Shown one piece after another: positions 21,013 through 22,081 of a stretch of 29,292 nt of DNA (position 1 is its first letter; each line of letters starts with the position of its first letter). Source of the DNA: a virus; the IMG/VR virus record IMGVR_UViG_3300017917_000653, positions 1 to 29,292 of that record. The stretch is one strand, 5' to 3'. Position numbers and translations under genes: made by a program. The notes beneath the pieces were generated by a model that was given only the letters and a program-made list of their open reading frames with translations, ran no database searches and was not told where the DNA came from.

Positions 21013-21390
21013 TTAAAATAAATCGGTGAATAAATTAGTTAAGATATAATGAGCGGCTTCCAGTTGTTCTTTCTCTGGGGCTAACTCATTATACCAGTAG
21101 ATGTCTCCTAAGTCTTTTAGATCTTGCTTTTGAAATGATACAAGCTCATCTGCAAGGTAAGAGATAACATCATTCTCATCCATAAACTTAGATAAGCATT
21201 TCTCGAATACATCGACAGGCACATAGAAGTAGTAAGGTGCAACATCACTTCCCACATACACCTCAAATTCTACCTCTTCACCATAATTGTAAGGAGCGCA
21301 TATAATCTCCAGGTTAGACAGCTTGTAATTAGCAGCTGAGAAAAGTTCTTCCATCTGAGAAAGATCTTCTTTTTTGATTTTGTTGTTCAT
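21013..21390 (-). CDS. Hypothetical protein
   Basis: 125 residues, acidic, with a mixed alpha/beta look: 'V-E-F-E-V-Y-V-G-S-D-V-A-P-Y-Y-F-Y-V-P-V' then helices 'V-F-E-K-C-L-S-K-F' and 'E-Q-L-E-A-A-H-Y-I-L-T-N-L'. It is the first gene downstream of the structured non-coding region (21391-21742) and may have its own promoter at 21416-21446. No family recognised. Confidence 0.6.
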   Translation of the reverse strand: MNNKIKKEDLSQMEELFSAANYKLSNLEIICAPYNYGEEVEFEVYVGSDVAPYYFYVPVDVFEKCLSKFMDENDVISYLADELVSFQKQDLKDLGDIYWYNELAPEKEQLEAAHYILTNLFTDLF

Positions 21391-21480: not shown

Positions 21481-21587
21481 AATTAATATAGATTTAAATT
21501 ACCAGGCCGGTATATACCGATTAAGGACGAAGCCACCTGATAAAATAAATAACCAAATTAATTAAACTAACGCATGAAAAACGTCGT

Positions 21588-21632
21588 GGAGAGTAAGGAC
21601 TTGAACCTTAGCCTATCCGTTTTAGACTCTCC
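21588..21632 (-). ncRNA. tRNA-like three-way junction (D-armless)
   Basis: On the minus-strand RNA, P1 GGAGAG / CUCUCC (21632-21627 with 21593-21588) encloses a 4-bp hairpin UCUA / UAGG with 7-nt loop AAACGGA and a 5-bp hairpin UAAGG / CCUUA with loop UUCAAGU. The last is a textbook tRNA T-arm (G-G-U-U-C-A-A-G-U-C-C). The middle hairpin resembles an anticodon arm with ACG in the middle but A instead of U33. There is no D-arm and no variable loop. Flanking GAAAA / UUUUC and CAUG / CAUG could extend P1. It is too short for a normal tRNA. Confidence 0.55.
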
Positions 21633-21690
21633 ATTTTCCGCATGTCAAAGAACAAAAAGCAGGTATTAATAATCTCACCTATCTTCTTCT

Positions 21691-21742
21691 GCTTAAGACG
21701 CCCCTAAGGACGTTTCGACTATTAAAGTCTCTTCAGTTAAGC
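21691..21742 (-). ncRNA. Hammerhead ribozyme, type I
   Basis: Read on the minus strand from 21742: stem I GCUUAA, core CUGAAGA, stem II GACU / AGUC with loop UUAAU, core GAA, stem III ACGUCC / GGGCGU with loop UUAG, then C17, then stem I UUAAGC. All conserved hammerhead bases are present (C3 U4 G5 A6 G8 A9, G12 A13 A14, A15.1-U16.1, C17), and the cleavage triplet is GUC, the commonest one. The cut would fall between 21697 and 21696. One pair in stem III is G-U only on this strand. It begins at the base after the stop codon of the upstream 33-residue gene. Confidence 0.85.
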
Positions 21743-21844
21743 TTAGTTTATCTTGCTCTTAATATAATCAGCTACTAATACGATTGCAGATCCAATTAAG
21801 AAGAATAATGCAAATACACCTGATAAGAATAATACTGTTTCCAT
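21743..21844 (-). CDS. 33-residue single-helix membrane protein
   Basis: Starts METVLFLSGVFALFFLIGSA, continues I-V-L-V-A-D-Y-I-K-S-K-I-N and stops at 21743. One transmembrane helix over about residues 4-25, then a short basic tail. It lies between the 61-residue membrane protein and the hammerhead, in the same transcript. The preceding 51 nt are A/T-rich leader without a Shine-Dalgarno site. Function unknown. Confidence 0.5.
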   Translation of the reverse strand: METVLFLSGVFALFFLIGSAIVLVADYIKSKIN

Positions 21845-21895: not shown

Positions 21896-22081
21896 TTAAA
21901 ATAGATTAGATACAATACCCACAATGCCCATTAGTAAAAAGCTTCCGCTAAACATAGCAAATAGATAAGCTACTAATCTTTGGATAGATACTACCTTAAT
22001 AATCTCGTTAACCAGGTTAACTACTACTAAGGCTAAAGCTACTACGAATAATACTGCTGCGAATGTGATTAAAGTTGTCAT
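21896..22081 (-). CDS. Small two-helix membrane protein
   Basis: 61 residues with hydrophobic segments at about 4-28 ('I-T-F-A-A-V-L-F-V-V-A-L-A-L-V-V-V') and 38-59. It is the first gene of the leftward early block, about 90 nt downstream of the promoter at 22177. The leader between is unusual, made of A/C-rich repeats on the minus strand. The role is unknown, but the first position suggests an early takeover or superinfection function. Confidence 0.6.
   Translation of the reverse strand: MTTLITFAAVLFVVALALVVVNLVNEIIKVVSIQRLVAYLFAMFSGSFLLMGIVGIVSNLF

Follow-up and report, generated by a model that had tools for sequence, protein, structure and literature searches.

The presumed early transcription unit and its hammerhead

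We analyzed the whole of IMG/VR virus record IMGVR_UViG_3300017917_000653 (29,292 bases; hereafter the window), whose ends share an 18-base direct repeat, so that it is probably a complete circular map. The genes are those of a tailed phage and include, by PHROGs assignment, terminase subunits, an HNH protein, and a DnaB-type helicase; the nearest described terminases are ~40% identical, several of them from Bacteroides phages, and we infer a host among the Bacteroidota. On the minus strand, a presumed transcription unit begins with an ORF for a 61-aa membrane protein (21896-22081) and continues with an ORF for a 33-aa small membrane protein (21743-21844), the hammerhead element (21691-21742), ~300 nt of untranslated RNA, and a 125-aa ORF (21013-21390). 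The only exact match in the window to a Bacteroidota-type promoter pattern, TTTG-N19-TATATTTG, precedes both small membrane ORFs and lies at 22207-22177; about one such match is expected by chance per window, and the same match is found at a comparable place in relative L137. This arrangement agrees with the original prediction, which had placed the hammerhead in the first early unit.

The element (21742-21691, minus strand) reads GCUUAA CUGAAGA GACU UUAAU AGUC GAA ACGUCC UUAG GGGCGU C UUAAGC. Its computed fold comprises helices of 6, 4, and 6 bp, each closed at the core with no mispair beside it: stem I (21742-21737/21696-21691), which forms the open end and is short at 6 bp, stem II (GACU/AGUC), and stem III (ACGUCC/GGGCGU). 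Judged by the core positions used in PMC3088659 (C3 U4 G5 A6 N7 G8 A9, G12 A13 A14, A15.1-U16.1, H17), the core is complete within 21736-21697 (CUGAAGA, GAA, the A15.1-U16.1 pair, and C17), as had been claimed for a complete type I hammerhead. The cut predicted from the sequence and from core homology falls after the GUC triplet, between C17 (21697) and 21696, which is the site named beforehand. Rfam model RF00163 (Hammerhead_1) aligns to the same coordinates over its full length (model positions 1-45) with a score of 26.4 bits and an E value of 2.9e-4 (501 nt searched), below a curated cut-off of 34 that is practical rather than defining. The match to RF03152 (RAGATH-1-hammerhead) is likewise under its curated cut-off, and an Rfam scan of the entire window at cut-off returned no match. 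The significant Rfam hit anticipated for type I was thus obtained only at a score under the cut-off. In 1500 first-order random genomes of about the same dinucleotide composition, a comparable motif appeared once (0.0007 per genome). These results, together with the covariation described below, support the element as a type I hammerhead ribozyme whose catalysis is predicted from the intact core. The predicted probability of the ribozyme fold is 0.49 for the bare 52-nt RNA and 0.00-0.24, at all lengths tested, once at least 48 bases of the upstream ORF are attached; alternative folds are thus predicted to be favored over the hammerhead when the transcript is longer.

Related hammerheads and their placement at stop codons

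To compare the locus with its relatives, we searched viral contigs with the terminase, which yielded 33 loci (30 at 83-90% identity), and gathered extra loci, including L202, via a neighboring conserved 120-aa protein. Searches for DNA-level relatives among annotated phages, for relatives of the 125-aa ORF in viral contigs, and for relatives of the 120-aa ORF in bacterial genomes found none. Scanning the relatives by a core-and-stem pattern revealed that L146 and L151 each carry a hammerhead upstream of terminase, on the early strand, and that L202 has two more in the same early region, where they flank one ORF on both sides and where the succession of a small membrane ORF and a hammerhead resembles the arrangement in the window. 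When the five copies are aligned, all 75 of 75 pair cells (15 pairs) are intact, and double-sided changes occur at five pairs, vs. 0-1 in slid controls. In stem I, these changes are C-G to G-C, U-A to C-G, and A-U to U-A; in stem II, they are G-C to A-U or C-G and C-G to A-U, while the core is unchanged. The compensating changes that a comparison of related phages was expected to bring out are therefore present, and this alignment, of five copies only, provides strong evidence that the hammerhead structure is under selection. Loop II has the form UNARU in four of the five copies and one inserted base in the fifth; no partner for it was identified in the stem I region. Rfam searches of small stretches recovered the L202 and L146 hammerheads as sub-threshold matches and did not recover that of L151, and searches of whole relative loci recovered none of them, probably owing to filters. 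Most relatives lack a hammerhead at this place, and its presence is patchy even among close ones, indicating that it is dispensable or replaceable.

The element abuts the upstream gene: bases 21745-21743 form the TAA of the 33-codon ORF, and the adjacent base, 21742, is the first of stem I, consistent with the earlier claim of a site immediately 3' of this gene. One base separates the stop from stem I in L146, and both L202 copies have a stop that overlaps stem I or lies almost next to it. We surveyed viral contigs using a core pattern blind to stop codons, followed by stem checks and removal of duplicates, and obtained, among the matches listed, 127 type I hammerheads in 87 loci, the present clade included; ORFs were called mechanically, and the set is a sample rather than a census. 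In 60 of these 127 listed hammerheads (47%), an ORF no shorter than 40 codons has its stop within -3 to +2 nt of stem I, as compared with 1.9% of 2679 CTGA decoy sites. The UGA of the core is itself the stop in 22 further cases among the 127 listed (17%; decoys, 7.2%; binomial p 1e-4). About two thirds of the listed phage hammerheads sit at a stop codon. Flush placement was seen in 54 of 92 cases vs. 26 expected for a random position inside the same gap, with 0 of 20,000 simulations reaching 54, an enrichment that partly reflects the compactness of phage genomes.

On the other side of the cut, the nearest ATG ORF starts a median of 28 nt downstream among the matches listed and no more than 60 nt downstream in 99 of the 127; at least two hammerheads are present in 21 of the 87 listed loci. 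The flanking proteins are mostly small and without known function. Those recognized downstream are of early types (anti-restriction, recombination, superinfection immunity), and the downstream families listed include no structural protein. The same pattern applied to bacterial genomes gave seven full hammerheads in 117 stretches, four of the seven with a stop at -3 to +10, a set (n = 7) too small for testing the stop rule alone. Registration with the stop suggests that hammerheads cut messages between genes, and it constitutes a simple, quantified rule of the kind that a role in mRNA separation predicts.

The untranslated leader and its tRNA-like element

The RNA downstream of the predicted cut carries two further elements on the minus strand: a boxA-like sequence, TTGTTCTTTGA (21645-21655), ~42 nt from the cut, and a tRNA-like minihelix (21587-21633). 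BoxA is the antitermination site of rRNA leaders; such a site binds NusB/S10 and prevents termination. The boxA-like TTGTTCWTTGAYAT resembles GTTCATTGACATA, located upstream of 16S in Epilithonimonas, and has rRNA-leader counterparts in Niabella (GTTCTTTGAAAG) and in a Sphingobacteriales MAG (GATCTTTGAAAG). The putative boxA is thus similar to sequences in rRNA leaders of three Bacteroidota genomes. The minihelix (21633-21587) comprises a 7-bp acceptor (UGGAGAG/CUCUCCA), a 16-nt linker, and a 5-bp T-stem (UAAGG/CCUUA) closed by the T-loop UUCAAGU, so that an acceptor and a T-arm with a UUCRANN loop are present while the D-arm and the anticodon arm are absent. It scores 21.4 bits with the Rfam tRNA model (cut-off, 29), and ARAGORN found no tRNA at this site; the element, which also emerged from a structural scan, is tRNA-like, not a tRNA.

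Comparable minihelices are present in eight relatives (L127, L129, L137, L142, L143, L146, L147, and L219). Their paired bases mostly differ, and their T-loops follow the pattern [UA]UC[GA][AU]NN; the L143 minihelix was read by eye and has one mismatched T-stem pair. In L127, L129, L143, L146, and L147, the minihelix is followed by a conserved AAGCC..GGCTT-type hairpin and the boxA-like TTGTTCWTTGATA or a near variant. In L151, a hammerhead occupies exactly the position of the minihelix and the downstream leader is conserved, which shows, at the level of sequence and for this one relative, a swap of the hammerhead with the tRNA-like element. A search of viral contigs for hammerheads paired with boxA left L151 as the sole true type I case, with 42 others representing chance or other arrangements; hence, the pairing is seen only in this clade. 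Minihelices are not enriched in the other hammerhead phages (1 found, 1.0 expected), so the exchange, too, is shown only for this clade. We rejected an attachment-site reading of the tRNA-like element, as both acceptor strands are present and their paired bases differ in step among relatives.

Several further structures were recorded. The boxA scan also picked up, by chance, two hammerheads that are probably of type II, with stem II as the open end, at L157 1159 (+) and L183 1945 (+). Phage L024 (minus strand, 733 and 980) has a minihelix ~40 nt before a small gene and, after that gene, a hammerhead whose core UGA is the stop. In six relatives (L127, L129, L142, L147, L151, and L219), the tRNA-like element or hammerhead directly follows a terminator-like hairpin and U-run, so that transcription of the leader needs read-through or an unseen promoter. 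Repeat units resembling CTATGTGATTTCYGGA are found in the untranslated region before the homologues of the 125-aa ORF in L127, L129, L143, L146, L147, and L151, and weaker units lie at ~22600-22550 (minus strand) of the window; these repeats could be binding sites or an origin. A further hairpin region, AUCAGGUGG...CGGUAUAUACCGGCCUGGU, spans 21541-21501 (minus strand), and its CAGGUG is common to the tRNA-like linker of relatives. A second structure, tRNA-like or three-way in form (AAAGTAG .. GGAGG ATCGTTT CCTCC C CTACTTT), lies at 280-333 on the plus strand, ahead of the following ATG and after the stop of the preceding gene, which belongs to the late block on the capsid side; it shows compensatory T-stem changes, is kept in many of the relatives that reach this place, and is possibly a late intercistronic processing or stabilizing element.

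Proposed role, alternatives, and known systems

We propose that the first early transcript contains a functional type I hammerhead that serves as a self-cleaving spacer between cistrons and is exchangeable with a presumed RNase P/Z site, a reading to which we assign a probability of roughly two in three. RNA polymerase would start upstream of the two small membrane ORFs, and after transcription of the 33-codon ORF and of the ~52 nt that follow, the ribozyme would fold and, given its intact core, cut after GUC at 21697/21696. The upstream mRNA would then extend 46 nt past its stop, finishing in stems II and III and bearing a 2',3'-cyclic phosphate, and the RNA beyond the cut would begin with a 5'-OH and contain the boxA-like site, the minihelix, and the following gene. 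A flush start after the stop would leave the ribozyme outside the translated region, where translation would not unwind it and the cut would not shorten the coding sequence. A ribosome reaching the stop might also hold the upstream sequence out of competing folds, a possible reason for the flush placement. In relatives, the RNA end before the boxA-like leader would presumably come from cutting of the minihelix by host RNase P or RNase Z. An uncoupling of the first small genes from the rest of the block is plausible and agrees with the 2011 prophage proposal.

It is also conceivable, though unlikely, that the downstream RNA is the product of consequence, with the hammerhead setting the 5' end of an untranslated early leader (boxA-like site plus minihelix) and its separation from the membrane genes being incidental. 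The L151 hammerhead points that way, since it lies between a terminator-like hairpin and the conserved leader, directly before the latter, rather than flush with a translated stop, as do the tRNA-like element found in that place in relatives and the resemblance of the leader's boxA-like site to rRNA leaders; on the other hand, the L146 and L202 hammerheads precede ordinary small ORFs, and in the wider sample the next gene follows closely (the median of 28 nt among the matches listed). Less probable still is a neutral passenger, that is, a cleavage-competent hammerhead that, having spread or originated among phages, is tolerated between genes without a role. Its patchy presence among close relatives would fit such a history, and PMC6155905 treats the function of bacterial and phage hammerheads as an open question, but compensatory changes in stems I and II around an unchanged core, the strong registration with stop codons, and the repeated use inside one phage all argue for a role.

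The two remaining explanations are highly improbable. Chance resemblance without catalysis would account for the sub-threshold Rfam score but is at odds with the 0.0007 motifs expected per random genome and with covarying copies in relatives. An RNA-circle or retrozyme-like element, replicating via cleavage and ligation, has precedent in eukaryotic retrozymes and viroid-like RNAs; the window, however, holds a single hammerhead copy in a conserved phage gene context, and the 2011 study detected neither spliced nor circular products for the prophage hammerheads (PMC3088659).

Beyond the self-cleaving spacer itself, we put forward a broader and tentative model, which we consider doubtful as a whole, of interchangeable intergenic cleavage modules in phages: either a stop-registered hammerhead, whose core UGA sometimes doubles as the stop codon, or a minimal tRNA-like hairpin that RNase P/Z of the host would cleave. 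Termination would be coupled to folding, and in this clade the modules would feed a boxA-protected untranslated leader that imitates the layout of an rRNA operon. A clade whose close relatives carry, at a single site, a hammerhead in some cases and a tRNA-like hairpin in others amounts to a natural swap experiment; if the two modules generate an identical RNA end, then cleavage itself is the function.

The window hammerhead belongs to a known phage and prophage kind. In 2011, Perreault et al. (PMC3088659) reported phage and prophage hammerheads that likely divide long phage transcripts into mRNAs of gene length, and described three tandem prophage sets that cleave in vitro, one of which also cleaves in E. 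coli. The words "stop codon" do not occur in the text of that paper (PMC3088659). The stop-codon rule and the tRNA-like exchange were not found in the literature searched, whose coverage is incomplete, and we do not claim that they are unpublished. As in the window, the prophage hammerheads lie between phage genes, although there often several per locus, and the excerpted text (PMC3088659) lacks the stop registration, the core-UGA stop, and the tRNA-like exchange seen here. RF00163 and RF03152 share the core, the helices, and a full-length alignment with the window element, which differs in its sub-cut-off scores and its 6-bp open stem I. The boxA of rRNA leaders is similar in sequence, whereas the window's site lies in a phage early leader and has a function predicted from sequence. 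HDV-like theta ribozymes lie beside tRNAs in gut phages, including those of Bacteroidota and Bacillota (PMC10879173); like the window element, they are self-cleaving phage RNAs linked to tRNA-type processing, but they belong to another ribozyme class and are proposed to act on the 3' trailers of real phage tRNAs, whereas the neighbor of the window hammerhead is an anticodon-less minihelix.
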